A stretch of 64,000 nt of DNA from Microbacteriaceae bacterium VKM Ac-2854. Its GTDB lineage: Bacteria; Actinomycetota; Actinomycetes; Actinomycetales; Microbacteriaceae. Positions 14,469 through 64,000 of the stretch are shown in pieces. Each line of letters starts with the position of its first letter. Position 1 is the stretch's first letter. The notes under the pieces were generated by a model. It was not told the DNA's origin, did not search any database, and was given only the letters and a program-made list of their open reading frames with translations. A program made the position numbers and the translations under genes. The stretch is taken from contig JABMLH010000001.1 of the NCBI GenBank assembly GCA_013205085.1, positions 124,001 through 188,000 of the forward strand. The letters are read 5' to 3'.

Positions 14469-14506
14469 CCGAAGGGGCGAGGATCCACGGATCCTCGCCC
14501 CTTCGG
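14469..14506 (+). terminator. Terminator of the ribosomal-protein operon
   Basis: A perfect 16-bp stem CCGAAGGGGCGAGGAT / ATCCTCGCCCCTTCGG with a 6-base loop, followed by CGTT. The U tract is poor, but the stem is unique among the window's palindromes, so this is a dedicated terminator. Confidence 0.85.
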
Positions 14507-14534
14507 CGTTCCCGGGCCACCCGGCGGTGCGTTC

Positions 14535-14614
14535 GAGATGCCCACCTGCGGACGAGATAGCCCGCCGCGGCGCGGCACGTCGTCCGCAACACCGAATCTC
14601 GCGAAATTTCGCGG
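14535..14614. repeat. Family C intergenic palindrome, copy 3 (inverted)
   Basis: Same modules as copies 1 and 2 on the other strand: CGAGATGCCC, then TGCGGACGAGATAG...ACGTCGTCCGCAA, then CTCGCGAAATTTCGCG (14599-14614). It lies between rpsN and the dehydrogenase gene, 45 bp before the latter's start. Confidence 0.85.
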
Positions 14615-14658
14615 AGAGGCGGTTCGTAGACTGGGGGCTCCGTCGACTGGAGACCTCC

Positions 14659-15579
14659 GTGAAAGTTCTCGTTCCGAACACCATCCGACTCGAGCTGCCG
14701 GGGGTGGATGCGGTCGAGTACGACCCGACCGTGCCGGTGCCCGATGAGCACCTCGACGCCGAGGTGTTGGTCGTCTGGCGCAGTACATCCGCGAACGTGC
14801 AGGATGCGGCGCAGCGGATGCCCCGGTTGCGGCTCGTGCAGACGCTCGCCGCCGGTCCCGACCAGATCCAGACGGCCGGTTTCGCACCCGAGGTGATCCT
14901 CGCCTCCGGGCGTTCGCTGCACGACGACACGGTGACCGAGCACACCCTCGCCCTGGTGCTCGCCGCCGTGCGCCGCCTCGATCAGATGCTCGACGCGCAG
15001 CGCGCCTCCCGTTGGGCCGAGGACTTCAACGTCGCTCAGCGCGATCGTGACACAGCCCAGTGCTACACCCTCGCGGGCGCGCGGGTTGCGATCTGGGGCT
15101 TCGGCTCGATCGCGAGCACGCTCGCTCCGCTGCTGAAGGCCCTCGGCGCCGAGGTGTTCGGCGTCGCCTCGACCGCGGGTGAGCGTCACGGCTTCCCGGT
15201 CGTCGCCGACATCGAGAACCATCTCGGCGACGTCGACGTACTGATCTCCCTCCTGCCCGCCACCGCCGAGACGGAGAAGGCCTTCGGCGCCGAGCTGATC
15301 GCTCGGCTGAAGCCGTCGGCGATCTTCGTGAACGTCGGCCGCGGTGCGACGGTCGACGAGGAGGCGCTGATCGCGGCGTTGCGCGAGGGCCGGCTTCGTC
15401 TGGCTGCCCTGGACGTGATGCGCGAGGAACCGCTGCCCGAGGACTCGCCGCTGTGGACGGCCCCGAACGTCATCCTGACTCCGCACGCCGCCGGCAACCG
15501 GCCGCGGGGAGCATCCGCTCTTGTGCTGCGCAACCTGGCCGCGCTCGAAGCCGGCACCGAGGTGAGCAACCGCGTGTGA
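14659..15579 (+). CDS. D-2-hydroxyacid dehydrogenase family protein
   Basis: 306 residues from a GTG at 14659 with GGAG (14649-14652) upstream. The NAD(P)-binding stretch is VAIWGFGSIASTLAPLLKALGAEVFGV (GxGxxA form), followed by NVGRGATVDEEALIAAL (catalytic Arg region), REEPLPEDSPLW (Glu) and LTPHAAG (catalytic His). The family reduces 2-keto acids or oxidises D-2-hydroxy acids. The residue after the glycine loop does not keep the Asp of strictly NAD-specific enzymes. The substrate is unknown and the gene stands alone. Confidence 0.86.
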   Translation: MKVLVPNTIRLELPGVDAVEYDPTVPVPDEHLDAEVLVVWRSTSANVQDAAQRMPRLRLVQTLAAGPDQIQTAGFAPEVILASGRSLHDDTVTEHTLALVLAAVRRLDQMLDAQRASRWAEDFNVAQRDRDTAQCYTLAGARVAIWGFGSIASTLAPLLKALGAEVFGVASTAGERHGFPVVADIENHLGDVDVLISLLPATAETEKAFGAELIARLKPSAIFVNVGRGATVDEEALIAALREGRLRLAALDVMREEPLPEDSPLWTAPNVILTPHAAGNRPRGASALVLRNLAALEAGTEVSNRV

Positions 15580-28127: not shown

Positions 28128-28143
28128 CTGGTTCTCCCTGGCA

Positions 28144-28192
28144 GGGGGTTGTCACTTCGTCCCGCTTCGCGTGGGACGGAGTGACAACCCCC
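28144..28192. repeat. 49-bp palindrome, family B copy 1
   Basis: GGGGGTTGTCACTTCGTCCC (28144-28163) pairs with GGGACGGAGTGACAACCCCC (28173-28192), with one mismatch. Between the MFS stop and the kinase start, both on the minus strand. Full-length copies recur at 47319 and 58640, and half copies at 45888 and 50151. Confidence 0.9.
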
Positions 28193-28197
28193 TTTCA

Positions 28198-47315: not shown

Positions 47316-47376
47316 GGAGGGGGTTGTCACTCCGTCCCACGTTTCGTGGGACGGAGTGACAACCCCCTCCTTTTTT
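47316..47376. terminator. Family B palindrome copy 2, acting as terminator between convergent genes
   Basis: GGA-GGGGGTTGTCACTCCGTCCCA...TGGGACGGAGTGACAACCCCC-TCC; the core is 47319-47367 with perfect 21-bp arms. A T6 run (47371-47376) follows on the plus strand, so it is a good intrinsic terminator for the symporter gene. The TetR stop TTA complement (47375-47377) overlaps the T run. Confidence 0.9.
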
Positions 47377-50114: not shown

Positions 50115-50371
50115 TCTCCGGGTGACGGTCAAAGAACGTCGACCCGCTGAGGGACGGAGTGACAACCCCCTTCTTCTGCGTGTGCGCGGCGGCGGAATGG
50201 GCCGCGGCCGGGATGCTGAGGGGATGCCGGTCGGCGGATGCGCGGCGCAATCCCGGCCGGATCCGCGGGAATCCGCGGGTCGGAGCGGCGCAATAGAAAC
50301 GTGCGCTGGCGGTCTCGACGGCGTAACGGCGGGGGCGTTGTATTGAAGCGTCCGCCGAAGGGGAGTCAGCC
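50115..50371. repeat. Spacer with half family B copy and GCGGCGCAAT direct repeats
   Basis: A lone right arm of family B (GGGACGGAGTGACAACCCCC) starts at 50151. Further on, GCGGCGCAAT occurs twice (about 50239 and 50287) around a CCGCGGG-rich stretch. TATTGA near 50340, followed by AAGGGGAG (50357-50364), probably represents the promoter and ribosome site of the riboflavin kinase gene. No coding potential is seen. Confidence 0.5.
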
Positions 50372-51064
50372 ATGTCGATCGCCGAACGTTCCACCGCCGT
50401 CAGCACCGAGACCATCGAGTCGTCCGCCCTCTACGTCGCCACCGGCGTCGTTGTGCCGGGTGACCAGCGCGGTCGCCTGCTCGGCTTCCCCACCGCGAAT
50501 CTGCCGATGGACGACTCCTCGCTCGCCGACGGCGTCTACGCCGGTACGGTCTACGACGAGACGACGGGCACCGAACACGTCGCCGCCGTCTCCATCGGCC
50601 GACGCACCAGCTTCTACGGCCGCGACGGCGAGCGCCTGCTCGAGGCGCACCTGCTCGACTTCGACGGCAGCCTCTACGGGCACACCATCGTGGTCGAACT
50701 CAGCGCCAAGCTGCGCCCGCAGCGCCGCTACCGCGGGGCCGAGGCGCTCGTCGAGCAGCTCGTGCGCGACGTCGAGGCCACCCGCACCTGGTCGCGCGAG
50801 CGGATGGGCACGGCCCCGCACCGGCAGGGGCGCTTCGAGACCGGCCCCCGCCGCGAGGCCCGCGAGACCGAGCGGATCCGAGCCGAGCGCGAGCGGCGCC
50901 GGGTCGCCGCGATCGCTCAGACCGTCGGCGAGATCGGCGCGGCCGGTGTGACGTACGAGATCGTCGCCGAGCGCAGCCGCATCCCCGTGGCGTACCTGCG
51001 CTGGGCGTACCCGAGCATCGACGCGCTGCTGGCCGTCGCCCGGTCGGTGCAGCCGGCGCACTGA
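50372..51064 (+). CDS. Riboflavin kinase fused to a C-terminal helix-turn-helix
   Basis: 230 residues. Residues 20-135 are a riboflavin kinase domain: GRLLGFPTANL (34-44), GVYAG (54-58), and EAHLLDFDGSLYG with the catalytic Glu91. The FAD-synthetase nucleotidyltransferase half of bifunctional RibF is missing. A charged linker (150-176) leads to a helical domain (178-225: IAQTVGEIGAAGVTYEIVAERSRIPVAYLRWAYPSIDALLAVAR) that looks like a TetR-type HTH. It would make FMN from riboflavin, and perhaps bind DNA, next to a cluster of flavin-dependent enzymes. The fusion order differs from archaeal RbkR, which has an N-terminal HTH. Confidence 0.82.
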   Translation: MSIAERSTAVSTETIESSALYVATGVVVPGDQRGRLLGFPTANLPMDDSSLADGVYAGTVYDETTGTEHVAAVSIGRRTSFYGRDGERLLEAHLLDFDGSLYGHTIVVELSAKLRPQRRYRGAEALVEQLVRDVEATRTWSRERMGTAPHRQGRFETGPRREARETERIRAERERRRVAAIAQTVGEIGAAGVTYEIVAERSRIPVAYLRWAYPSIDALLAVARSVQPAH

Positions 51065-51066
51065 CC

Positions 51067-51141
51067 GCAGCAAATGACGTCGAGGCGGGCGAATAGCCCT
51101 CCGGATGCGGTCGGCGGCCTCGATCATCGTCATTTGCTGTC
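51067..51141. repeat. Family D intergenic palindrome, copy 2
   Basis: GCAGCAAATGACGTCGAGGC (from 51067) against GCCTCGATCATCGTCATTTGCTG (to 51139), with an inner CGG/CCG-rich loop. It begins 3 bp after the riboflavin kinase stop. Confidence 0.8.
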
Positions 51142-51180
51142 GGCACCCTCGCTCCGAACCCGAGGGAAACTGCAACAGAC

Positions 51181-51228
51181 GTAACGCAGCCGTTACTCCC
51201 CGCGCCTTCTGTCGCAATTCAAGCGACA
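51181..51228. promoter_or_regulatory. Two adjacent palindromes upstream of the GntR/UTRA gene
   Basis: GTAACG-CAGC-CGTTAC (51181-51196) and TGTCGC-AATTCAA-GCGACA (51210-51228) are both perfect 6-bp-arm inverted repeats. TATGTT (51229-51234) just after the second could be a -10 box. Such paired dyads in front of a GntR gene suggest autoregulation, or sites for the riboflavin kinase-HTH protein. Confidence 0.55.
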
Positions 51229-51276
51229 TATGTTGATTTGACGAGGCGATGCGCCTCAGCTCTGGAGGCTGCACCC

Positions 51277-52086
51277 ATGGACGACGACTTCGAACTCGCC
51301 GAGGCGCTCGGCCGTGCCCGCGAGGGCAGCCAGCGCCGGATCCGCGAGCTGCTGCAGAGCAGCCCGCGCCGCGCGCACGCGTTGCTGCGCGCCAGCATCC
51401 GGCGCGGACTGATCACCGAGAAGGACCTCGTCGAGGAGCACTCTTTGGTCATGTCGATGATGATGAGCCGCAACTCGATCCGCAGCGCGCTGCAGCAGCT
51501 GGGCGAGGAGGGCCTTATCCGCCGCCGGCAGCGCATCGGCACCAACGTCGTCGGGCAGATCTGGGAGCTGCCGCTGCTCTCCCTGCTTCCCGGCGCCGGC
51601 TGGGCGATGGGGTCCGACTCCTCGCAGCACCCGGGCGGACGCGACATGTCGATCGAAATGACCGAGGTGAGCGAGGTGATCGCGCACCAGCACATCCGCG
51701 ACCGCCTCGAACTCGACGTCGACCGCGTGGTGATGGCCGAACAACTGGTCTCGATCGAGGGCACGCCGGCCGGCATCATCGTCGGCTACCACCCGATCGC
51801 CGGAACGACTCCGCGCGGCGAGCGTCCGGATCCGCGGCCGTTCATCGACGCCGTCCGTGCTGCGCCGGGCAATCAGGTCGAGGCCACCGTGGAGGCCGTG
51901 AACGCGGATGAGCGCACGGCGCGCATCCTCGGGCTGAAGGAGGGCGCGGCGATCCTCACCCGGGAGACCCTCGTGCGCAACGCGGCCGGCGTGCCGCAGT
52001 TCCTCGCCTACGGCCACTACCGCGGCGACCGCGTCGCCCTCTGGGCCGAGGACCCCGATGTGGAAGCCATGCGCTTCACCGCCTGA
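51277..52086 (+). CDS. GntR-family regulator with UTRA ligand domain
   Basis: 269 residues. The DNA-binding part (residues 15-95) has LVEEHSLVMSMMMSRNSIRSALQQLGEEGLIRRRQRIGTNVVG, the GntR recognition helix and wing. The rest is a UTRA domain (VVMAEQLVSIEGTPAGIIVGYHP; QVEATVEAVNADERTARILGLKEGAAILTRETLV). The N-terminal 35 residues are longer than usual. GGAGG lies 8 bases before the ATG. It is the likely regulator of the transporter and monooxygenase genes that follow. Confidence 0.87.
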   Translation: MDDDFELAEALGRAREGSQRRIRELLQSSPRRAHALLRASIRRGLITEKDLVEEHSLVMSMMMSRNSIRSALQQLGEEGLIRRRQRIGTNVVGQIWELPLLSLLPGAGWAMGSDSSQHPGGRDMSIEMTEVSEVIAHQHIRDRLELDVDRVVMAEQLVSIEGTPAGIIVGYHPIAGTTPRGERPDPRPFIDAVRAAPGNQVEATVEAVNADERTARILGLKEGAAILTRETLVRNAAGVPQFLAYGHYRGDRVALWAEDPDVEAMRFTA

Positions 52087-52545
52087 AGAAGGTGCCTCGG
52101 CAAGACGGCACGGGCGACGTTAAGCACAGCCCGGCGCAGCCGGTCTTCTTTCGGTGGTCGAGTAGCCCGTTCGCTCTGCGAACTGGCGTATCGAGACCCG
52201 GTGCGCTTCGTCTCGAGATGCGGTGCTCGATCGCTTCAACTCGAGAGAACGCGCGATGGGTTTCGATACGCGTCGGCCGGATTTCGGCAGGCTCAATCAC
52301 CGCGGGGACCGGCTCCGCCGGGCTGCGCCTCACAAGCGGCCTTTGGCTACTCAACCAGCGAAGGGGGCGACGCGGGGTGGTTGATCGTGCGGCGAATTGA
52401 CGCCGAGAGAATGCGATTCCCCTGGTCAACCCCACATTCCGCCCACAGGTCGCGATGCGCAATCAGAAGTTGACGGCCGCGACCCGGTAGCGAAATACCC
52501 GCCGGGTTCACTGATACCAACCACCCTCGAGGAAAGGAGCCCGAC
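52087..52545. other. 459-bp non-coding spacer before the second ABC operon
   Basis: Mostly occupied by repeat E3 (52153-52360). After it comes a lower-GC stretch (52380-52500) that should hold the operon promoter, although no convincing -35/-10 pair was found by eye. GGAAAGGAG (52531-52539) is the ribosome binding site of the first permease. No gene was recognised in it. Confidence 0.6.
52153..52360 (+). repeat. Family E long repeat, copy 3 (left flank of ABC operon)
   Basis: Begins GGTGGTCGAGTAGCCCGTTC and contains CTGCGAACTGGCGTATCGAGACCC, CGATACGCGTCGGCCGG, ATTTCGGCAGGCTCAATC, and ends TACTCAACCAGCG. The same blocks, in reverse orientation, form copy 4 at 57725-57866. Internal arms (TCGAGAC/GTCTCGA) allow a hairpin. 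Confidence 0.85.
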
Positions 52546-53463
52546 GTGGTCCGTTTCGTCTCCCGCCGGCTCATCCAGGGCCTCGTCACCGTCTTCGGCG
52601 TTGTGACCGTCGCCTTCTTCCTGGTGCGGCTCTCCGGCAACCCGGCGGCGCTGCTGCTGGGGCCCGAAGCCTCGCAGGACGACATCGCCCGGCTCTCCGC
52701 GTCGCTCGGCTTCGATCAGCCCTTGTTCTTCCAGTACACGAACTTCCTCGCGAACGCCGTCACCGGCGACTTCGGCGCCTCGCTGCGGCAGGGCACGCCC
52801 TCGCTCGACCTCGTGCTGCAGCGCTTGCCCGCGACCCTGCAGCTCGCGCTGACCAGCTTCGTGCTCGGCCTCGTGCTCGCCTTCATCGTGGTGCTGATCA
52901 TGCAGCTCTCCGACTCGTCGCGGCTGCGCAGCGCGGTGCTCTGGTTCGCCAGCGCGCGGCAGGCGATCCCCTCGTTCTGGTTCGGCATCCTGCTGGTGAT
53001 GGTGTTCGCCGTCAGCCTGGGCGTGCTACCCGCGCTCGGGAACAACTCGCCGCTGTCGATCATCCTGCCGTCGGTGACGATCGCGACCCTCGAACTCGCG
53101 CTGTACATCCGGTTGCTGGACACCGGCTTCGCCGATCAGTACCGGATGGACTACGTGCGCACCGCCTACGCCAAGGGTCAGCGCCGCAGTGTGATCATCC
53201 TGCGGCACATGCTGCCCAACGCCCTGCTCCCCGTGATCACGGTCGCGGGCCTCAACCTCGGAGCCCTCCTCGGCGGCACGGTCGTGGTCGAGCTGGTGTT
53301 CAACTGGCCCGGCGTCGGCCAGCTGCTGATGCAGTCGATCTCGAACCGCGACTACACCGTGGTGCAGTCGGCCATCCTCGTCATCGCGCTGTTCTTCGTG
53401 CTGGTGAACTTCCTCGTCGACCTCGTCTACGCCGCCCTCGACCCGAGAGTGAGACTCCAGTGA
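52546..53463 (+). CDS. ABC transporter permease (DppB type), second importer
   Basis: 305 residues, GTG start behind GGAAAGGAG. N-terminal FVSRRLIQGLVTVFGVVTVAFFLVRLSGNPA; EAA loop DYVRTAYAKGQRRSVIILRHMLPNAL; six helices. First gene of a four-gene importer; the stop overlaps the next gene by 4 bp (GTGA). Confidence 0.93.
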   Translation: MVRFVSRRLIQGLVTVFGVVTVAFFLVRLSGNPAALLLGPEASQDDIARLSASLGFDQPLFFQYTNFLANAVTGDFGASLRQGTPSLDLVLQRLPATLQLALTSFVLGLVLAFIVVLIMQLSDSSRLRSAVLWFASARQAIPSFWFGILLVMVFAVSLGVLPALGNNSPLSIILPSVTIATLELALYIRLLDTGFADQYRMDYVRTAYAKGQRRSVIILRHMLPNALLPVITVAGLNLGALLGGTVVVELVFNWPGVGQLLMQSISNRDYTVVQSAILVIALFFVLVNFLVDLVYAALDPRVRLQ

Positions 53464-54391
53464 CCCCGGCCCCCACCGAGCTGGACGTCCCGACGCCCGC
53501 CTCGACCACCACCGTCACCCAGAAGCTGGCGATCCAGCGGGTGCGCTGGCCGTTCCGCCGCCCGCAGCCCGGCGCGCGACGCCCCAAGCTGAGCGCCTCC
53601 TTCTACGTGGCGACCGCCCTGGTCGCGATCGTGTTCCTGACCATCGTCGTGGTGCCGCTGCTGCCGTTCTTCGACCCCGACACGCAGGATCTGCGCGGCC
53701 GCTTCCTGCTGCCGTTCGCCGACCCCGCGCACCTGCTCGGCACGGATGCGCTGGGTCGCGACATGCTCTCCCGCCTGGCGGTCGCCGGCCGCGTCTCGCT
53801 CTCGATCGCGGTGCCCGCGGTCGCGCTGAACCTGCTGATCGGCGTGACGCTCGGCCTGATCGCCGGCTACTACGGCGGCAAGCTCGACAACGTGATCTCG
53901 GCGCTGTCCGACATCCAGCTGGCCATCCCGATCATGCTGCTGCTGATCGCCATCGTCTCGGCGATCGGCCCCTCGGTGATCACGCTGATCGTCGTGATCG
54001 GCGTCGCGAACTGGGTCGGCTACGCCCGGGTCTCCCGCGCCACCGCCTGGTCGCTGCGCGAGCGCGAGTTCATCTGGGCGCCGAAGACGCACGGCGCGAG
54101 CAACGGCTGGATCCTGCGCAAGCACCTGATCCCGAACGTGATCCCGGCGCTGGCCGTGCTGGTGCCGTTCGACCTCGGCGTCATCGTGCTGCTCGAGGCC
54201 GCGCTGTCCTTCCTGGGCCTGGGCATCCAGGCGCCCACCCCGAGCTGGGGCGGCATGATCGAGGAGGGCCAGACCTATCTACGCGACTCCCCGATGATCA
54301 CGATCCTGCCCGGCGTCATGCTCTTTATGCTCGTCGCCGGCCTTCAGTTCATGAGCCAGCGCCTCACCGGCGTGCAGTCGCAGAAGGCGGA

Positions 54392-54395
<4 letters not shown>
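53460..54395 (+). CDS. ABC transporter permease (DppC type), second importer
   Basis: 311 residues, GTG start. A hydrophilic N-terminal 50 residues precede the membrane domain. GTDALGRDMLSRLAVAGR is the DppC signature, and SLREREFIWAPKTHGASNGWILRKHLIPNVIP the EAA loop. ATGA overlap with the ATPase gene. Confidence 0.94.
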
Positions 54396-56062
<1,667 letters not shown>

Positions 56063-56170
56063 TCCTCCGCTCCACGCCTCCCCGTTCCCCTGCGCACCCG
56101 CGCGACCGGTCGGTGCTGCCCACCCGGATCCCCATCCGTGCATCCGACCCTCGACGAAAGGCACTTCCCG

Positions 56171-57700
56171 ATGCTCAAACGCACCGCACGAATCGCCGTG
56201 GCGGCTACCGCCGCGGCGTCCGTCCTCCTGCTCGCCGCCTGCAGCGGCGGCTCCTCCGCCGACACCGCCGCTTCGACGAAGGACTCCATCGTCGTCGCGC
56301 AGCCGAGCGACCTCGCCAATGCTGATCCCGTGATCGACAACGGCCTCTACAGCACCAACATCTTCCACGCCGTCTACGACCAGCTCACCACGGTCGACGG
56401 CGAGGGCGCCCTGCAGCCGCGCCTGGCCACCGAGTGGACCGCGAGCGAGGATGCGAAGACGTGGAGCTTCACCCTCCGCGACGACGCCACCTTCAGCGAC
56501 GGCACCGCAGTGACGGCGGAGGACGTGCGATTCAGCTTCCAGGCCGTGATCGACGACCCCGACTCGCTGAACAAGATCTACACGAACAACATCGAGTCGA
56601 TGACCGTGGTCAGCGACACCGAGATCACCTTCCAGCTCAAGGCCGGCGACTCCGCGTTCACCCGCCGCGTCTACTACATCTCGATCGTGCCCGAGGCGTA
56701 CTACACCTCGCTCGGCTCCGAGGGCTTCGCGGCCGAGCCCGTCGGCTCCGGCCCGTACACCTTCGTGAGCTGGACTCCGGGTGTGTCCGTGGTGCTCAAG
56801 GCCAACGCCGACTACTGGGGCGGCGAGCCGGCCATCGAGAACGTGACCGTCGAGCCGATCGCGGATGCGGACGCCCGGTTGAACGGTCTGCTCTCGGGCG
56901 ACATCGACCTCACCGCGATCGCGCCCGCGCAGGTCGCCTCCGTCGAGAGCTCGGGCTACACCGTGGCCGAGGGCCAGTCGAACCAGCTGATCTACGTCGG
57001 CTTCAACGAGACCTCGAACGCGGCGCTGGCGAACGCGGATCTGCGTAACGCGATCAGCCTCGCGATCGACCGCGAGACCATCATCGACACGATCCAGGAC
57101 GGCTACGGCACCATCGCCAACGCCTCCTCCGTGGCGCCGAACGTGAACGGCTTCGACGTCGATCTGCCCGACCTCGCCTACGACCCCGACGAGGCCGAGG
57201 CGCTGGTCGCCTCCTCCGGCTACGACGGCAGCCCCATCCCGTTCCAGTACCCGACCGGCGGCAACGTGCCGAACTCGGCGGAGGTGGCGCAGGCCATGGC
57301 CTCGCAGCTCGCGGAGGTCGGCATCAACGTCGAACTCGAGGGCATCGAGTACTCCTCCTACGTGCTGCTGACCTCGTCGAAGGCGCACACCGGCATGTAC
57401 ATCACCCAGTTCTCGCCCTCGATGATGGACGCGTCGACCACGCTGAACTACCTCTACGGCCCCACCGGCTACGCGATCTTCGCCGATGAGGACATCAACG
57501 CCCTGATCGTGGAGGCGAACGCCACGGTCGACGTGGATGCCCGCAACGACGTCATCGCCCAGATCTGGGAACTGAACGCCGAGCGCACCCACCTCGCCAA
57601 CATCGACTACACGGTCGCGACGTACGGCGTCGCGCCCGACCTCGACTGGACCCCGCGCGCCGACGGCCACGTCGACTGGCGCGAGGCGAGCTGGAAGTAA
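56171..57700 (+). CDS. ABC transporter substrate-binding lipoprotein, family 5, second importer
   Basis: 509 residues. Lipobox LLAAC (Cys24). SBP_bac_5 features: QPSDLANADPVIDNGLYS, LRDDATFSDGTAVTAEDVRFSF, YWGGEPAIENVTVE and LRNAISLAIDRETI. An upstream ATG at 56138 gives a non-signal N-terminus and is rejected. The ligand is unknown; family relatives include the EDTA-binding EppA. It is followed by repeat E4. Confidence 0.93.
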   Translation: MLKRTARIAVAATAAASVLLLAACSGGSSADTAASTKDSIVVAQPSDLANADPVIDNGLYSTNIFHAVYDQLTTVDGEGALQPRLATEWTASEDAKTWSFTLRDDATFSDGTAVTAEDVRFSFQAVIDDPDSLNKIYTNNIESMTVVSDTEITFQLKAGDSAFTRRVYYISIVPEAYYTSLGSEGFAAEPVGSGPYTFVSWTPGVSVVLKANADYWGGEPAIENVTVEPIADADARLNGLLSGDIDLTAIAPAQVASVESSGYTVAEGQSNQLIYVGFNETSNAALANADLRNAISLAIDRETIIDTIQDGYGTIANASSVAPNVNGFDVDLPDLAYDPDEAEALVASSGYDGSPIPFQYPTGGNVPNSAEVAQAMASQLAEVGINVELEGIEYSSYVLLTSSKAHTGMYITQFSPSMMDASTTLNYLYGPTGYAIFADEDINALIVEANATVDVDARNDVIAQIWELNAERTHLANIDYTVATYGVAPDLDWTPRADGHVDWREASWK

Positions 57701-57724
57701 GCACCACTCGGTGGTCCGTCAACT

Positions 57725-57866
57725 CGCTGGTTGAGCTTGCCGACTTGTCCTGAGCCTGTCGAAGGGAACCCGGCCGACCGTATCGAGATCCTTGCGCCTC
57801 ATCTCAAGGGAGGGTGCAAGGGTCTCGGTACGCCAGTTCGCAGAGCGAACGGGCTACTCGACCACC
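57725..57866 (-). repeat. Family E long repeat, copy 4 (right flank, inverted)
   Basis: Read on the minus strand it starts GGTGGTCGAGTAGCCCGTTC, as in copy 3, continues CTGCGAACTGGCGTACCGAGACCC and CGATACGGTCGGCCGG, and ends GGCAAGCTCAACCAGCG. With copy 3 it forms inverted flanks around the 52546-57700 transporter operon. Confidence 0.85.
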
Positions 57867-57931
57867 GGAGATGACCTGCTGCGCCGGGCTGTATTCAACT
57901 TCTCCCGGGCTGTCAATCGAAAGGAATTCTT

Positions 57932-58624
57932 TTGTATCTGGACTCCGAGAGCAGCACGCACGACTTCACCTGGATGGTGAAGAACGCGGTCGTGCCGCGG
58001 CCCATCGCGTGGGTGGGCAGCGAGAGCGCGGCCGGGGTGGCCAACCTCGCGCCGTTCTCCTACTTCACGCTGGTGACGATGGATCCGCCGACGCTGATGA
58101 TCTCGTTCACGGGCGAGAAGGATTCGTACGACAACATCCGCGAGACCGGCGAGTTCGTGATCAACATGGTCACCGACGGCCAGGCCGAGGTGGAGACGGC
58201 GACCGCCGCGATCACCCCGCCCTCGGTCGACGAGGCGGCGCTGCTCGGGCTGGAACTCGTCGCCTCCACGAAGGTGACCCCGAAGCGGCTCGCGATGGCG
58301 AAGGTCGCGCTGGAGTGCGTCTTCCTCTCCGAGACCACCCTGTTCGACGCGCACGTCGTGTTCGGTCAGGTGGTCGCGGTGCACACCGACGACGCGATCC
58401 TCGATGCGAACGGGCGCATCGACGTGGCGAAGTACCGCCCCGTCGCCCGCCTGGGCGGCTCGCTGTACACAACGGTGACGACCGACTACAAGCACCCGGT
58501 GCCGGTCGCGACCGCCGAGTGGCTGGCCGCCCAGCCCGGCGGCGGCGCCGCCGCGACGGTGGATGCGGACGAGCTCGCCGCTGCCGCGGCCTGGTCCCGC
58601 GAGCAGGCGGCCGCCGCGGTCTGA
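57932..58624 (+). CDS. Flavin reductase-like split-barrel protein
   Basis: 230 residues from a TTG with AAAGGAA at 57919-57925. The flavin-reductase domain is seen in VVPRPIAWVGSESAAGVANLAPFSYFTLVTMDPPTLMISF, followed by KDSYDNIRETGEFVINMV and the late RLGGSLYTTV. It would reduce free FMN with NAD(P)H and supply the two downstream luciferase-like monooxygenases. The domain is extended C-terminally by an Ala-rich helix. Confidence 0.87.
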   Translation: MYLDSESSTHDFTWMVKNAVVPRPIAWVGSESAAGVANLAPFSYFTLVTMDPPTLMISFTGEKDSYDNIRETGEFVINMVTDGQAEVETATAAITPPSVDEAALLGLELVASTKVTPKRLAMAKVALECVFLSETTLFDAHVVFGQVVAVHTDDAILDANGRIDVAKYRPVARLGGSLYTTVTTDYKHPVPVATAEWLAAQPGGGAAATVDADELAAAAAWSREQAAAAV

Positions 58625-58639
58625 CGCGCTCCCTGACCA

Positions 58640-58688
58640 GGGGGTTGTCACTCCGTCCCACCCTCCGTGGGACGCGGTGACAACCCCC
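58640..58688. repeat. 49-bp palindrome, family B copy 3
   Basis: GGGGGTTGTCACTCCGTCCCA / TGGGACGCGGTGACAACCCCC with one mismatch pair. Starts 15 bp after the flavin reductase stop. The next 7 bases join directly onto a truncated gene. Confidence 0.9.
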
Positions 58689-58694
58689 TCTTCC

Positions 58695-58859
58695 TTGTTC
58701 GCCGGCACCGTCGCGGTCGCACAGCCCGCCTCCGCCGGTGAACGCGTCTACACGAACGGCGGCCCCGACAGCGGCTGCAACGAGACGTCGGTGCTGAAGA
58801 CGAAGGTCAGCGACAGCTCCTCGGTCAGCGCGAAGTTCGACAAGCTCGTGACCTGCTGA
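58695..58859 (+). pseudogene. 5'-truncated gene for a small secreted protein
   Basis: The frame reads LFAGTVAVAQPASAGERVYTNGG-type sequence to a TGA at 58857-58859 (about 54 residues). FAGTVAVAQPASA is the end of a signal peptide with an AxA cleavage site, and the mature remnant has two Cys (GCNE, VTC), which could form a disulfide. The signal peptide's basic N-terminus and ATG are missing; palindrome B lies where they should be, and no ribosome site precedes the TTG at 58695. It keeps its own terminator at 58877. Confidence 0.6.
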
Positions 58860-58876
58860 GTCGCAATCGCCCCTCG

Positions 58877-58910
58877 ACGGCCCGTCGGAACCCCGGTTCC
58901 GGCGGGCCGT
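58877..58910 (+). terminator. Terminator after the truncated secreted-protein gene
   Basis: ACGGCCCGTCGGAACC (58877-58892) pairs with GGTTCCGGCGGGCCGT (58895-58910), with one mismatch and a 2-base gap, followed by TCGTC. Unrelated to the repeat families. Confidence 0.75.
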
Positions 58911-58928
58911 TCGTCATCCGCGGAGCAC

Positions 58929-59016
58929 GGTGCCTGCAGTGAATGACGTTGATCGAGGGTCGCGAGCGTCCCATCGTCTCGAATCGGGCCATCCGACGTC
59001 ATTTGCTGCAGGCACC
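58929..59016. repeat. Family D intergenic palindrome, copy 3
   Basis: GGTGCCTGCAG...AATGACGT at the left and ACGTCATTTGCTGCAGGCACC at the right, with TCGA-rich inner arms. Lies between the truncated gene and the monooxygenase operon. Confidence 0.8.
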
Positions 59017-59280
59017 GCCTCGGTGGCGGATACGCGCATCGGCCTCCGCGCCAGTCGCGACCCGAGCCTCAGGGACCGGCGAATACGGAGCGAACGGAAC
59101 GGAAAGACCTGGTCAGCGCCCGATCCGCCCGGTAACGCCGTGCGCAATCAGATCGCTACCGCCCCGCTCCAGGGGCGAAATGTCGAGCGGATGGAATGGG
59201 TACCGGGCAGCACCACCGAACCACCCGCGGGAGGCGGCTCGCCCGCCTCCCGCTCCCGAACACTTCCAAGGAGACAGCTC
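59017..59280 (+). promoter_or_regulatory. Leader of the monooxygenase operon with GC-rich hairpin
   Basis: 264 bp without a gene. A perfect 11-bp hairpin GCGGGAGGCGG-CTCGC-CCGCCTCCCGC (59227-59253) lies 27 bases before the ATG. AAGGAGA (59268-59274) is the ribosome site. No riboswitch (SAM, FMN) consensus could be recognised by eye, and no convincing promoter. Confidence 0.5.
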
Positions 59281-60594
59281 ATGGTCACCCCGTTCCACAT
59301 GGCGTGGTTCACGCCGTTCAAGACGCCCGCCTGGAAGAGCCCGTGGGCCGCGGACACCCCGCTCACCTGGCTGAACGGCGACTACTACATCGACATGGCC
59401 AAGCAGCTCGAACGGGCCGGCTTCGACTTCATGATGTTCGAGGACTCGACCCTCGTCTCCGACACCTACGGCGGCACCACCGAGAACGACCTCAAGCACG
59501 GCCTGCACTCGCCCAAGGGCGACCCCGTGCCGCTGCTGCCGGTGCTCGCGCAGCACACCTCCAAGATGGGCTTCATCGCCACGATGTCGACCAGCTTCTA
59601 CCCGCCTTTCATCCTCGCGCGCACCATGGCCACGATGGACCACCTCACCAAGGGTCGCGTCGGCTGGAACGTCGTCACCTCGTCCGAAGACCTGGCCGGC
59701 CAGAACTACGGCCTCGACCACCTGCTCCCGCACGACGAGCGCTACGTGATGGCCGAGGAATACGTGCAGGTCGTCAAGGCGCTCTGGGATTCGTGGGAGC
59801 CCGGCGCCATCGTCGCCGACCGCGAGACCGGCGTGCTGGCCGATCACACGAAGGTGCATCCGATCCACCACGACGGAAAGTACTTCAAGGTGCGCGGCCC
59901 ACTGAACCTGCCGGCCGGCCCGCAGGGTCATCCGGTGATCTGCCAGGCGGGCGGCTCGCCCGCGGGCCGCGACTTCGCCGCCAAGCACGCCAACGTGCTG
60001 CTCTCGCAGCCCAAGGGTGTGGAGGGGATGAAGGAGTACCGCGACGACATCCGCGCCCGCGCGCTGAAGCACGGCCGCAACCCCGACGACATCAAGGTGA
60101 TGTACATCATCCAGCCCGTTCTGGGCGAGACGCAGGCGGACGCGGAGGAGATGGCCCGGCGCCGCTACGAGCTCACGCAGGACCAGATCGAGACCGTGCT
60201 CGGCATCATGTCGATCACCACCGAGGTCGACTTCAAGCAATTCGATCTCGACCAGCCGCTGCCGGACGACGTGACCACCAACGGCCACCAGTCGGGCCTC
60301 GAGCAGTTCAAGAAGCGCGCGGCGGGCAAGACCGTCCGCGAGGCGCTGATGGGCCAGTCCTCCGAATCCGTGATGCTGGTCGGCACGCCCGACTCGGTTG
60401 CGGAGCAGATGGAGGAGGTCATCGACTTCGTCGGCGGTGACGGCTTCCTCGTCCGCGGCGAGCCGGTGCGGACGCACTCGCGCCGCTACATCGACGAGAT
60501 CGCCTCCGGTCTCGCGCCGGCCCTGCGCCGCCGCGGCCTGATCCGCAGCGACTACTCCGAGCCCACCTTCAAGCAGAACCTGGCCGCGTTCTGA
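59281..60594 (+). CDS. NtaA/SnaA/DszA-family FMN-dependent monooxygenase (1)
   Basis: 437 residues, bacterial-luciferase-like TIM barrel. GWNVVTSSEDLAGQNYGLD, ERYVMAEEYVQVVKALWDSWEP, KVHPIHHDGKYFKVRGPLNLP and PVICQAGGSPAGRDFAAKHAN are signature blocks of the nitrilotriacetate/EDTA/dibenzothiophene-sulfone monooxygenase subgroup. It uses reduced FMN and oxygen to break a C-N or C-S bond or to hydroxylate. The stop overlaps the next, paralogous gene by one base. Confidence 0.92.
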   Translation: MVTPFHMAWFTPFKTPAWKSPWAADTPLTWLNGDYYIDMAKQLERAGFDFMMFEDSTLVSDTYGGTTENDLKHGLHSPKGDPVPLLPVLAQHTSKMGFIATMSTSFYPPFILARTMATMDHLTKGRVGWNVVTSSEDLAGQNYGLDHLLPHDERYVMAEEYVQVVKALWDSWEPGAIVADRETGVLADHTKVHPIHHDGKYFKVRGPLNLPAGPQGHPVICQAGGSPAGRDFAAKHANVLLSQPKGVEGMKEYRDDIRARALKHGRNPDDIKVMYIIQPVLGETQADAEEMARRRYELTQDQIETVLGIMSITTEVDFKQFDLDQPLPDDVTTNGHQSGLEQFKKRAAGKTVREALMGQSSESVMLVGTPDSVAEQMEEVIDFVGGDGFLVRGEPVRTHSRRYIDEIASGLAPALRRRGLIRSDYSEPTFKQNLAAF

Positions 60595-61904
60595 TGACGG
60601 ACCCCTTCCACCTCGGCTGGTTCCTGAACGGCACGAGCGTGCCCGCCTGGGGGCAGGAGTTCTCGGGCGCGATCGGCACGCAGTGGCAGCAGGCCGAGAT
60701 CTTCGTCGACCTGGCCCGGGCGATGGAGCGGGCCCGCTTCGACTACGTGCTGATCGAGGACAACACCTTCGTCGGCGACCGCTACGGCGACTCGATGGAG
60801 CTGTACCTCAAGCACGCGTTCCAGACGCCGCGGCAGGATCCGATGATCACCGCGACGCTGATGGCCCAGGCCACGCAGCACCTCGGCATCATCGCCACGG
60901 CGGGAACCTTCGCCTACCATCCGTACATGCTGGCCCGGCTGGCCGCCTCGATCGATCAGATCTCCCGCGGCCGGATGGGCGTCAACATCGTCACGGGCAC
61001 CTCCGACCGGGCGCTGCAGAACTACGGCTACCCCGGCATGGCGGAGCACGACTCCCGCTACGACGTGGCCGAGGACTTCCTCAAGGCCGCGATCGCCCTC
61101 TGGGACACTTGGGAGCCGGGCGCTGTGGTGGCGGATCCGGAGAGCGGCTACTGGGCCGATCACACCAAGGTGCACCGCGCGGACTACGAGGGCACGCACT
61201 ACTCCACCCGCGGCCCGCTGAACACCGGCCCGCTGCCGCAGGGTCGACCGGTGATCTCGCAGGCCGGCGGCTCGCCGCGCGGCATCGACTTCGCCTCCGA
61301 GTACGCCGACACGATCGTGGCGATCCAGGCGACCCCCGGCGCGATGAAGGTCTATCGCGACAAGGTGCACGCCTCAGCGCGCGCAGCCGGGCGGGATCCG
61401 TCGCGAATCAAGGTGCTCTTCGGCGTCGGCCCGATCATCGGGGCGACGGAGGCGGAGGCGCAGGAGCGGATCCGGCTGCGGCGCGAGGAGATGGCCGAGA
61501 ACATCGAGGTGCACCTGGCCGCGATGGCGAAGTCGACCGACATCGACTTCTCGACCATCCCGCTGGACGTGCCGCTGGGCGAGCTCGACCTGCGCACCAA
61601 CGGCACGCAGCAGCTCACCGACTTCGTCGCCCGAAACGCCACCAAGACCCTCCGCGAGGCCGTGGTCTCCCGTGGCATCGGCAACGGTCCGCTGCTGGTC
61701 GGCACCCCCGAGACGGTGGCCGACCAGATGGAGGAGATGATGCGCGTGGCCGGGGGCGACGGCTTCCTGATCTCCACCAACGGCGTGACCCGGCGCTTCA
61801 TCGCCGAGGTCTGCGACGGCCTGGTGCCCGAGCTGCAGCGCCGCGGCCTCACCCGCCGCGAGTACACGGCTGGCACCCTGCGCGAGAACCTCCTCGCCTT
61901 CTGA
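60594..61904 (+). CDS. NtaA/SnaA/DszA-family FMN-dependent monooxygenase (2)
   Basis: 436 residues, same subgroup as the preceding gene: GVNIVTGTSDRALQNYGYP, DSRYDVAEDFLKAAIALWDTWEP, HYSTRGPLNTGPLPQGRPVISQAGGSPRG. Moderately diverged, so the two probably act on successive intermediates or form different activities. ATG in a TGATG junction with gene 1. Followed by a strong hairpin. Confidence 0.92.
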   Translation: MTDPFHLGWFLNGTSVPAWGQEFSGAIGTQWQQAEIFVDLARAMERARFDYVLIEDNTFVGDRYGDSMELYLKHAFQTPRQDPMITATLMAQATQHLGIIATAGTFAYHPYMLARLAASIDQISRGRMGVNIVTGTSDRALQNYGYPGMAEHDSRYDVAEDFLKAAIALWDTWEPGAVVADPESGYWADHTKVHRADYEGTHYSTRGPLNTGPLPQGRPVISQAGGSPRGIDFASEYADTIVAIQATPGAMKVYRDKVHASARAAGRDPSRIKVLFGVGPIIGATEAEAQERIRLRREEMAENIEVHLAAMAKSTDIDFSTIPLDVPLGELDLRTNGTQQLTDFVARNATKTLREAVVSRGIGNGPLLVGTPETVADQMEEMMRVAGGDGFLISTNGVTRRFIAEVCDGLVPELQRRGLTRREYTAGTLRENLLAF

Positions 61905-61960
61905 CCGGCGCGGGGCGGGAACCGTTTCGAGCGACCGAACCCCCGTCCCGCGCCCACCCC

Positions 61961-62011
61961 CTGGCGAAAAGTTGCAGCCCTCGGGACCCCAGGGCTGCAA
62001 CTTTTCGCCAG
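61961..62011 (+). terminator. Perfect 21-bp hairpin (family H copy 2)
   Basis: CTGGCGAAAAGTTGCAGCCCT (61961-61981) pairs exactly with AGGGCTGCAACTTTTCGCCAG (61991-62011). It shares AAGTTGCAG/CTGCAACTT with the hairpin at 23087. Placed 57 bp after the monooxygenase stop and 41 bp before the hydrolase start; probable terminator or processing signal inside the cluster. Confidence 0.85.
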
Positions 62012-62052
62012 AACAGCAGCGGAACCATCGACCTGAAGGAGAAGACGAGAGC

Positions 62053-62871
62053 ATGCGCGGATATGTGGACACGGACTGGGGACAGCTGCATTACCGGCAG
62101 AGCGGCGGGCAGCCGAGCGCGGGCGCGCCGGTGGTGGTGCTTTTTCACGAGTCGCCGCGGACCTCGGCGGTGTACGAGCCGATCATGGCCGCCCTCGGGG
62201 AGACGGTGAGCGCATACGCGTTCGATACGCCCGGGTTCGGGCAGAGCGACTCGGCGCCGGTGGATCAGCCGCTGGCGGAGTACGCCCGGATCTTCGTGCA
62301 GGCCATCGACGCGCTGGGCATCGACTCCTTCATCCCGGTGGGCATGAAGACCGGCAGCTCGATCGTCACGGCGATCGCGACCCTCCTGCTCGGCACCGGC
62401 CGCGTCGACCGCGCCGTGCTCTACGCACAGGAGAAGCCGGACGCGGCGGATGCGGAGTACTGGGCGCAGAACTGGGCGCCCGAGCTGCCGGTCACCGCCG
62501 ACGGCGCGATCCTCGACTACCTCTGGCAGAAGAACATCGGCCTCTACGACGCCGACGACCCCACGGCGCTGCTCGGCTGCGTCGCCGACACCATCTCCAA
62601 CCTCGACCGCTACAACTCGATCTACCCCGCGGTGTTCCGCGGCCGGGTGCAGACCTGGCAGCACAACCTCGAGCTGATCGAGGCCGGCGTCGAACTCACC
62701 GTGATCCGCCCGCCGTGGGCACGGATGAAGCTGGACATCCCGATCGAGTTCGCGACGCTGCCCGGCGCGACCGAGGTCACGATGCCGGTCAGCGGCCAGT
62801 TCCCGGCCCGCGCCCCCGAGGAGTTCGTCGCGGCCGTGCTCGCCGTGGCGACCCCCAGCGCGATCGTATGA
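62053..62871 (+). CDS. Alpha/beta hydrolase-fold protein with non-canonical nucleophile elbow
   Basis: 272 residues. The fold is recognisable from QLHYRQSGG, VVVLFHESPRTSAVYEPIMAAL, YAFDTPGFGQSDSAP and the following VGMKTGSSIVTAIATLLL. The nucleophile elbow GxSxG reads GMKTG (97-101), with Lys99 in place of Ser, and the oxyanion-hole HG is HE. The enzyme may use a neighbouring Thr or Ser, act without a covalent step, or be inactive. Cotranscribed by ATGA overlap with the exporter. Confidence 0.8.
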   Translation: MRGYVDTDWGQLHYRQSGGQPSAGAPVVVLFHESPRTSAVYEPIMAALGETVSAYAFDTPGFGQSDSAPVDQPLAEYARIFVQAIDALGIDSFIPVGMKTGSSIVTAIATLLLGTGRVDRAVLYAQEKPDAADAEYWAQNWAPELPVTADGAILDYLWQKNIGLYDADDPTALLGCVADTISNLDRYNSIYPAVFRGRVQTWQHNLELIEAGVELTVIRPPWARMKLDIPIEFATLPGATEVTMPVSGQFPARAPEEFVAAVLAVATPSAIV

Positions 62872-64000
62872 GTACCGTCGGGGCGGATGCGCCGCCGCGC
62901 ACCCGCCCCGCTCCCACCAGCCTGCGCCCCATCCTCGCGCCGCTGTCCGGCCTGATGATCGCCCAGTTCGTCTCCGGACTCTCGGCGACCATTGTCGCCA
63001 CCTCCATCCCGACGATCATGCGCACCCTCGAGGGCCCGGCGAGCATGTCCACCTGGCTGGTGGCCGCGACGATCCTGGGCAACACCGCGTCGACGCCGAT
63101 CTGGGGGCGCCTGGCCGATCTGTTCCCACCCAAGCGCATCCTGCAGGCCTCGATCTCCATCTTCATCGTCGGTTCCGTGCTGGCCGGACTCTCGGTCTCG
63201 ACCGGGATGCTGCTGGCGGCCCGAGCCCTGCAGGGCATCGGCCTCGGCGGCACCGGCGCGGTCACCCTCGCGGTGGTCGCATACCTGGTCGTCCCGCGCG
63301 AGCGCGGGCGGGTGAACGGATACCTGCAGTCGCTGCAGACCGCCGCGACGATCCTCGGCCCGATCGTCGGCGGCGTGATCGTGCAGTACCTCGGTTGGCG
63401 CTGGTGCTTCTTCGTCGCGCTGCCGCTGGCGATCGTGTCGATCCTGGTGCTCTCGCTCAAGCTGCACATCCGAGCCCAGCCGCGCACCGGTGCCCGCACC
63501 GACTACGCCGGCGCCGCCCTGATCGCCACGGGCATCCCTTCGGCGCTGATCTGCCTGACGATGCTCGGCGACGACGGCGGGCTCACTCCGGTGTCCGCTG
63601 CGTTCGGAGCGTTCGGGCTGCTCGCGCTGGTGGCGCTGGTGATCGTCGAGCTGCGCGTCAGCGCGCCGATCATCCCGGTGCGGCTGCTCGCGCGGCGGGT
63701 GCCCTTCGTCTGCGTGCTGGCCGGCTTCCTGCTCGGGTCCACGCTGTTCGGTGGCTCGGTGTTCGTGACGCAGTATCTGCAGATCGGCCTGGGCATCGAG
63801 CCCGCCGTCTCGGGCTTCCTCCTGGCGCCGATGGCGCTGGGCGCGGTCGCCGCCTCGTGGATCGCGGGCCGCGCGATCAGCCGCACCGCACGCGTGAAAC
63901 CGGTGTTGCTGATCGCCGCCACGCTGATGCTGCTCGGCAACGTCGCCCTCGCGCTCGCGCCGTTCGCCCCAATGCCGCTCGCGCTGGCCGGTGCCCTGCT
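62868..64000 (+). CDS. MFS transporter, EmrB/QacA (DHA2) type, cut by window end
   Basis: 377 codons present, no stop in the window. IAQFVSGLSATIVATSIPTIMRTLEG is the helix-1 motif, TPIWGRLADLFPPKRILQ the loop 2-3 motif, LQTAATILGPIVGGVIVQYLGWRWCFF motif C. About 11 helices are visible so far. ATG overlaps the hydrolase stop (ATGA). It may export a product or toxic intermediate of the monooxygenase pathway. Confidence 0.88.
   Translation, partial: MSTVGADAPPRTRPAPTSLRPILAPLSGLMIAQFVSGLSATIVATSIPTIMRTLEGPASMSTWLVAATILGNTASTPIWGRLADLFPPKRILQASISIFIVGSVLAGLSVSTGMLLAARALQGIGLGGTGAVTLAVVAYLVVPRERGRVNGYLQSLQTAATILGPIVGGVIVQYLGWRWCFFVALPLAIVSILVLSLKLHIRAQPRTGARTDYAGAALIATGIPSALICLTMLGDDGGLTPVSAAFGAFGLLALVALVIVELRVSAPIIPVRLLARRVPFVCVLAGFLLGSTLFGGSVFVTQYLQIGLGIEPAVSGFLLAPMALGAVAASWIAGRAISRTARVKPVLLIAATLMLLGNVALALAPFAPMPLALAGAL

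Follow-up and report, generated by a model that had tools for sequence, protein, structure and literature searches.

Gene content of the island

The DNA analyzed here (the window) is a stretch of 64,000 nucleotides, bases 124001–188000 of contig C1 in the 4.75-Mb genome of Microbacteriaceae bacterium VKM Ac-2854, an actinobacterium of a type associated with plants and soil, which we counted among the Rathayibacter loci on an inferred genus assignment. The last part of the window carries an island of eleven genes that encodes two monooxygenases dependent on flavin mononucleotide (FMN), designated MonoA and MonoB, and begins with a riboflavin kinase carrying a putative C-terminal helix-turn-helix (HTH), designated RFK-HTH. 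After correction of the gene starts, all eleven genes lie on the + strand between 50372 and about 64343:

50372..51064, +, riboflavin kinase ending in a putative TetR-type HTH, RFK-HTH (Pfam PF01687; alignment of six orthologues; AlphaFold2 [AF2] model)
51277..52086, +, GntR/UTRA regulator (Pfam GntR and UTRA; start set by the ribosome site and orthologues)
52546..53463, +, permease 1 of an ATP-binding cassette (ABC) importer (Pfam BPD_transp_1)
53460..54395, +, permease 2 of the ABC importer (Opp2C/NikC-type matches in NCBIfam, under the cut-offs)
54392..56062, +, fused double ATPase of the ABC importer (two ABC_tran stretches and oligo_HPY)
56171..57700, +, family-5 solute-binding lipoprotein (Pfam SBP_bac_5)
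57932..58624, +, flavin reductase (Pfam Flavin_Reduct; nearest solved chains 4z85 and NtaB 3bpk)
59281..60594, +, NtaA-type FMN monooxygenase MonoA (TIGR03860, 417 bits; own clade, 100/99)
60594..61904, +, NtaA-type FMN monooxygenase MonoB (TIGR03860, 386 bits; own clade, 100/99)
62053..62871, +, alpha/beta-hydrolase-fold protein without a nucleophile Ser or catalytic His
62868..64000, continuing to about 64343 in the genome, +, major facilitator superfamily (MFS) transporter (Pfam MFS_1; orthologues in 6/10 loci, including its own)

The analysis confirmed the gene set and order of the original prediction, namely, kinase-HTH, GntR/UTRA, importer, reductase, two monooxygenases, alpha/beta protein, and exporter. 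The closest solved chains of the binding protein are agrocinopine, nickel, and peptide binders, which indicate no substrate. An Rfam search of the window at the gathering threshold identified no RNA family and, by that test, no FMN riboswitch; the window also contains no tRNA.

Conservation of the island

The core of the island, from GntR to the alpha/beta protein, was found together and in one orientation in all ten loci compared, which represent at least five genera (four Rathayibacter, Nocardia jinanensis, Subtercola boreus, two Curtobacterium, Frondihabitans, and G021 of the same family). They comprise every distinct locus in which a MonoA with 82% or higher identity was found; more distant MonoA relatives were left out of the synteny map, except for L083 and L084 (64%), which are part of a paralogous cluster. 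Identity to the window proteins across the loci is 82–95% for MonoA and 69–86% for MonoB. The reductase precedes the importer in the Nocardia locus, and the binding protein precedes the ATPase in the Curtobacterium and Frondihabitans loci. The MFS gene (6/10 loci) and the kinase-HTH gene (4/10) are accessory. The import and monooxygenase genes first noticed in the window are kept as a unit, and none of the compared loci shows them dispersed.

Since the Nocardia MonoA is 82% identical despite belonging to a different family, these sequences suggest that the island spread by horizontal transfer. In genome G004, both flanks and the kinase are present and the stretch corresponding to about 51040 to 64370 of the window is absent. 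Beside the kinase-HTH gene of this genome (C21, 352596–353435) are five copies of a unit of roughly 70 bp, spaced by about 192 bp. Among 396 genomes of the order and 394 of the class (overlapping samples; four candidates per genome scored), MonoB orthologues (E 1e-160) were found in its own genome only; therefore, the island is rare or was missed.

Other genes accompany the island in some loci. A second type of importer and an isochorismatase-type hydrolase lie beside or within it in several genomes (L033 [14498–15124], L035, L080, L108, and L081). The L033 hydrolase is nearest to RutB, the ureidoacrylate amidohydrolase; the window genome has only a 32% relative. In N. jinanensis, RibBA and an FMN_red-type gene lie directly upstream of the island (L082, 494–2810), and this RibBA is among three genes of the Nocardia genome whose RibB domain exceeds the cut-off; these neighbors are a second link of the island to flavin supply. 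A DUF222/HNH gene is located between the reductase and MonoA in three Rathayibacter loci (L033, 895–2433; L035, 2207–3598; L029, 16879–18264) and is absent from the window. Its Pfam basis is the L033 copy only, and a DoxX-like frame was seen alongside by eye in some loci. This gene is possibly mobile.

GlnR-like elements upstream of the island genes

Four elements resembling boxes of GlnR were found upstream of island genes:

50290..50327, +, GlnR-like element upstream of kinase-HTH (GCAAT-n28-GTAAC; 2/4 half-sites, the weakest of the four)
51181..51218, +, GlnR-like box upstream of GntR (GTAAC-n6-GTTAC and GCAAT; 3/4 half-sites)
52459..52496, +, GlnR-like box upstream of permease 1 (GCAAT-TTGAC-GACCC-GAAAT in 11-bp steps; 3/4 half-sites)
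59144..59181, +, GlnR-like box upstream of MonoA (GCAAT-GCTAC-GCTCC-GAAAT; 3/4 half-sites)

Alignments of the upstream regions revealed a conserved element of four half-sites in 11-bp steps. The pattern G[CA]AAY-N28-G[AT]AAY precedes each of the six kinase-HTH genes. It occurs three times in the window, always on the + strand and before the kinase, permease 1, and MonoA genes, against 0.3 under an order-1 null (standard deviation 0.53, 30 runs), and it recurs at the same three places in G003, G007, and G011. In nine loci (235,096 bases), 15 of the 16 matches are upstream of an island gene; the pattern was derived from the Rathayibacter alignments, which makes these counts partly circular. The held-out locus G021, which lies outside the pattern definition, yielded a single match in its 19,901 bases, located 114 bases ahead of permease 1. 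Neither Curtobacterium locus has a match, and the element there shows slightly different spacing (by eye only).

Published GlnR boxes, as given in an excerpt of PMC10704036, include gTnAc-n6-GaAAc, GTnAC-n6-GTnAC, and t/gTAAC-n6-Gc/aAAC. Half-sites simplified from these boxes (G[ACT]NA[CT] or TTNAC) form four arrays in the window, which is not above the null of 3.8; all four are upstream of GntR, permease 1, and MonoA. The ten loci contain 31 arrays, 13 of which precede an island gene by 38–320 bases; by area, no more than about 1.7 would be expected in that space. These 13 represent 11 promoters, and Nocardia, Subtercola, one Curtobacterium, and G021 contribute none of them; in G021, two overlapping arrays are located about 1.5 kb before GntR, away from the island promoters. 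In the window genome, GTAAC-n6-GAAAC is present at amtB and at L144, which we take to be glnA. GTAAC-n6-TTTAC is also found at amtB, and the same form occurs upstream of GntR in three relatives; no canonical box was found at L145, presumably a glnII-like gene. The genome encodes a GlnR orthologue (L148, 282 aa) that matches the solved GlnR chains 4o1h (“Transcription regulator GlnR”) and 4o1i.

Because of these GlnR-like boxes, C-N chemistry and nitrogen are favored over C-S chemistry. The original prediction had proposed an inducible pathway that breaks C-N or C-S bonds in an imported compound; import and a two-component FMN-monooxygenase pathway stand, and the boxes tip the choice toward C-N.

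The element may instead be the site of another OmpR-type regulator, such as MtrA or PhoP, or of GntR, with a signal other than nitrogen. Spacing of 11 bp is common to OmpR-type regulators in general. Streptomyces MtrA recognizes nearly the same sequence as GlnR, according to the available part of PMC9045223. However, this genome has similar half-sites at amtB and glnA and encodes a GlnR orthologue, and MtrA also acts on nitrogen genes in the same account (PMC9045223); we regard this alternative as somewhat unlikely. The half-sites, 11-bp spacing, GlnR orthologue, and boxes at amtB and glnA agree with the actinomycete GlnR regulon as excerpted from PMC10704036; in contrast to that regulon, the island appears to include a flavokinase, a member not met in the literature compared, including that excerpt. 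None of the titles listed from the open-license literature reports a link between GlnR and these monooxygenases.

The riboflavin kinase with a putative C-terminal HTH

The motifs GFPTAN and LLEAHLLDF, which we assume to be the catalytic motifs of the kinase, are invariant in 6/6 aligned kinase-HTH orthologues. The HTH-like part comprises residues 167–230 of 230, with nothing after it in the alignment or the AF2 model, and its HTH-like fold was recognized from the AF2 model and the VIA alignment. Pfam gave no HTH match in this region even at E 10, and Foldseek rows past the riboflavin kinases were noise. Both parts are under purifying selection. The PF01687 domain and the HTH-like C-terminal fold agree with the original description of a kinase with an extra C-terminal HTH. 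A canonical TetR regulator, with an N-terminal HTH and a ligand-binding helical domain, was excluded because the HTH-like part is C-terminal.

A separate bifunctional RibF is encoded elsewhere in the genome, and RFK-HTH is, thus, an additional flavokinase. The kinase-HTH form was found only in Rathayibacter (5/15 genomes). A search of 299 genomes of the family (E 1e-23) gave eight matches: the window genome and G011 have the HTH form, G021 and G210 encode short kinases without an HTH, G328 has a bifunctional enzyme, and G116, G124, and G178 were not classified.

The kinase-HTH gene may be a mere neighbor, a Rathayibacter gene that lies beside a traveling island by chance. G004 carries it between the same flanks without the island, and among the four Rathayibacter loci it is less conserved (62–66% identity) than the island genes (71–95%). 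This explanation is nevertheless doubtful: the gene adjoins GntR in the same orientation in 4/4 Rathayibacter islands, three of which have other upstream neighbors, and a further copy adjoins paralogous cluster 2 in G011. Moreover, its promoter has the same GlnR-like element as the island genes. This shared element also supports the proposal of an FMN supply built into the pathway; however, the kinase is outside the core and absent from 6/10 loci, which restricts that proposal to Rathayibacter.

The HTH of RFK-HTH probably binds DNA, which would let flavin status feed back on transcription. We tentatively put forward the further possibility that RFK-HTH is both a flavokinase and a transcription factor, in which a TetR-type HTH lacks a ligand-binding domain, the kinase domain acts as the flavin sensor, and FMN status gates a nitrogen-scavenging FMN-monooxygenase pathway. 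The kinase of archaeal RbkR is of the CTP-type. RbkR, a bifunctional regulator and enzyme, similarly joins a flavokinase and an HTH in one protein, with the HTH at the N terminus in the portion of PMC8305020 consulted; in contrast, RFK-HTH combines a RibF-type kinase fold with a C-terminal TetR-type HTH. Neither a bacterial flavokinase-HTH fusion, of the TetR type or otherwise, nor its placement in a nitrogen-type unit was met among the open-license titles listed.

Monooxygenases

MonoA (417 bits) and MonoB (386 bits) both exceed the curated cut-off of TIGR03860 (NtaA/DmoA, 279.7 bits). In a tree of 37 rows, which besides the island rows includes 10 of the 52 loci with MonoA relatives, MonoA falls in one clade and MonoB in another (100/99 each), both inside one subfamily. 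YtnJ/CmoJ, DszA, LadA, and HcbA1 are all outside this subfamily (100/100; long branches, and the LadA row is partial). The joins of the long branches G000c2_3, HcbA1, DszA, and YtnJ are unsure, and RcaE was placed by scores and not in the tree. Against solved chains, MonoA scored 258 bits with YtnJ, 244 with LadA, 241 with DszA, 239 with DmoA, 238 with NtaA, 222 with 7e36_B, 218 with HcbA1, 202 with RcaE, and 163 with EmoA. The corresponding MonoB scores were DszA 232, HcbA1 227, YtnJ 218, NtaA 211, 7e36_B and LadA 210 each, DmoA 207, RcaE 198, and EmoA 157. No characterized orthologue of either protein was found among the references compared; therefore, no substrate can be named. In favor of the nitrogen reading, two of the three plasmid MonoA relatives inspected have such neighbors as an amine oxidase in one case and a creatininase with a putative urea transporter in the other.

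The island may be a sulfur-scavenging unit like the Bacillus subtilis ytm/cmo operon, with C-S cleavage and the kinase in the role of RibR. RibR and CmoO/CmoJ of B. subtilis are encoded in one operon. This operon appears to be the nearest precedent: in the excerpts compared, RibR is a monofunctional flavokinase in a sulfur unit (PMC7693651) and CmoO/CmoJ function in S-alkylcysteine salvage (PMC10863075). Both systems encode a flavokinase with an importer and FMN-dependent monooxygenases, RibR also combines a kinase with nucleic-acid (RNA) binding, and the best solved relatives of MonoA and MonoB are YtnJ and DszA, respectively. However, in the tree MonoA and MonoB do not group with YtnJ, DszA, LadA, or HcbA1, and the sulfur-operon placement that could have overturned the original prediction was not seen with the sulfur enzymes included there (CmoJ/YtnJ and DszA). 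Acetyltransferase and deacetylase domains were not found among the island proteins scanned, nitrogen-type boxes precede the island genes, and the island differs in its TetR-type HTH, family-5 importer, and monooxygenase clades. We consider the sulfur explanation improbable. Membership in ytm/cmo itself was rejected because the tree shows no CmoJ (YtnJ) orthologue and the N-acetyltransferase/deacetylase domains are missing from the island proteins scanned, although the extra flavokinase is present.

The rca cluster of Microbacterium maritypicum comprises a kinase, reductase, lyase, and ribokinase. Flavin catabolism, with MonoA or MonoB as the riboflavin lyase of an rca-like cluster, is very improbable: a kinase, reductase, and luciferase-like monooxygenase lie side by side as in rca (RcaE, in an excerpt of PMC12746152), but the RcaE chain 5w48 exceeds only EmoA among the NtaA-type solved chains, no ribokinase was found among the island proteins scanned, an importer and GntR are present instead, and 6/10 loci have the same monooxygenases without the kinase. 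The original option of a flavin as the substrate is, accordingly, disfavored, and rca membership was rejected (no RcaE orthologue by score, 202/198 versus the best 258/232, and no ribokinase).

The emo/epp and NtaA/NtaB systems degrade ethylenediaminetetraacetate (EDTA) and nitrilotriacetate (NTA) with a similar combination of importer, NtaA-type monooxygenase, and flavin reductase. The island resembles them in this combination, and NtaB is among the nearest solved reductases. In contrast to these systems, it has two paired monooxygenases and an alpha/beta-fold protein, and EmoA is the most distant reference. EDTA/NTA orthology was rejected since the EmoA chain 5dqp scores below all other NtaA-type references (163 and 157 bits).

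Alpha/beta-fold protein

The nucleophile elbow of this protein is VGMKTGS, with Lys99 in the nucleophile place, and the position of the catalytic His is Gln249. Both substitutions are invariant in 9/9 aligned sequences and in the tenth locus (10/10). A serine alpha/beta hydrolase was ruled out because the elbow has no Ser, Cys, or Asp nucleophile and the catalytic His is missing. The predicted “hydrolase”, thus, holds for the fold and not for the classical catalytic residues.

Repeats and paralogous cluster 2

A 95-bp inverted repeat (87.5%; arms 52104..52199 and 57820..57914) flanks the permease-1 box together with all four genes of the importer, with no further copies in 199 kb of pieces from the same genome; it could be an inversion route or a mark of module exchange. 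A dispersed palindromic repeat, GAGGGGGTTGTCACTCCGTCCCAC...GTGGGACGGAGTGACAACCCCCTC, occurs at 28143–28193, 47317–47369, and 58639–58690, and as half copies at about 45885 and 50151. Those at 47317, 50151, and 58639 are intergenic, and the repeat is also present in other Rathayibacter.

Paralogous cluster 2 is located at C1 58.6–79 kb of the window genome (L130, L131), on C4 of G004, and on C20 of G011, where it has its own kinase-HTH gene. In the window genome, it comprises four NtaA-type monooxygenases, a more distant luciferase-like enzyme, an importer of the oligopeptide type, and three MFS genes, with similar elements before GntR and one monooxygenase. Its regulator (L130, 8597–10216; C1 about 56.6–58.2 kb) contains two tandem GntR/UTRA units in one polypeptide, as in G011 (L084).

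Proposed mechanism and significance

We consider, with modest confidence, that the island is a nitrogen-scavenging unit that cleaves C-N bonds of an imported nitrogen compound, with an FMN supply built in for Rathayibacter. Nitrogen scavenging by C-N cleavage is more likely than sulfur scavenging, and flavin breakdown is unlikely. Under nitrogen limitation, GlnR (or MtrA) would act at the box-like sites before the kinase, GntR, importer, and MonoA genes, and GntR/UTRA may add a response to the substrate or to a product as inducer. A nitrogen-containing organic compound would enter through the family-5 importer, the flavin reductase would supply FMNH2, and MonoA and MonoB would consume FMNH2 together with oxygen in cleaving C-N bonds. 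The alpha/beta-fold protein may convert the product through unconventional chemistry. The extra riboflavin kinase of Rathayibacter would raise the FMN supply while the pathway is on, and its HTH would report flavin status to transcription.

Two-component FMN monooxygenases use up free reduced FMN, and the matching of flavin supply to this use is little known beyond Bacillus RibR. RFK-HTH, with promoter elements common to the importer and oxygenase, is a directly testable case of such matching. If the dual role of RFK-HTH is true, archaeal RbkR (DNA) and Bacillus RibR (RNA) would be joined by a third independent link between a flavokinase and gene control. Two further leads from the conserved island are a nitrogen compound used by several actinobacterial genera and an alpha/beta-fold protein that has Lys at the nucleophile place.

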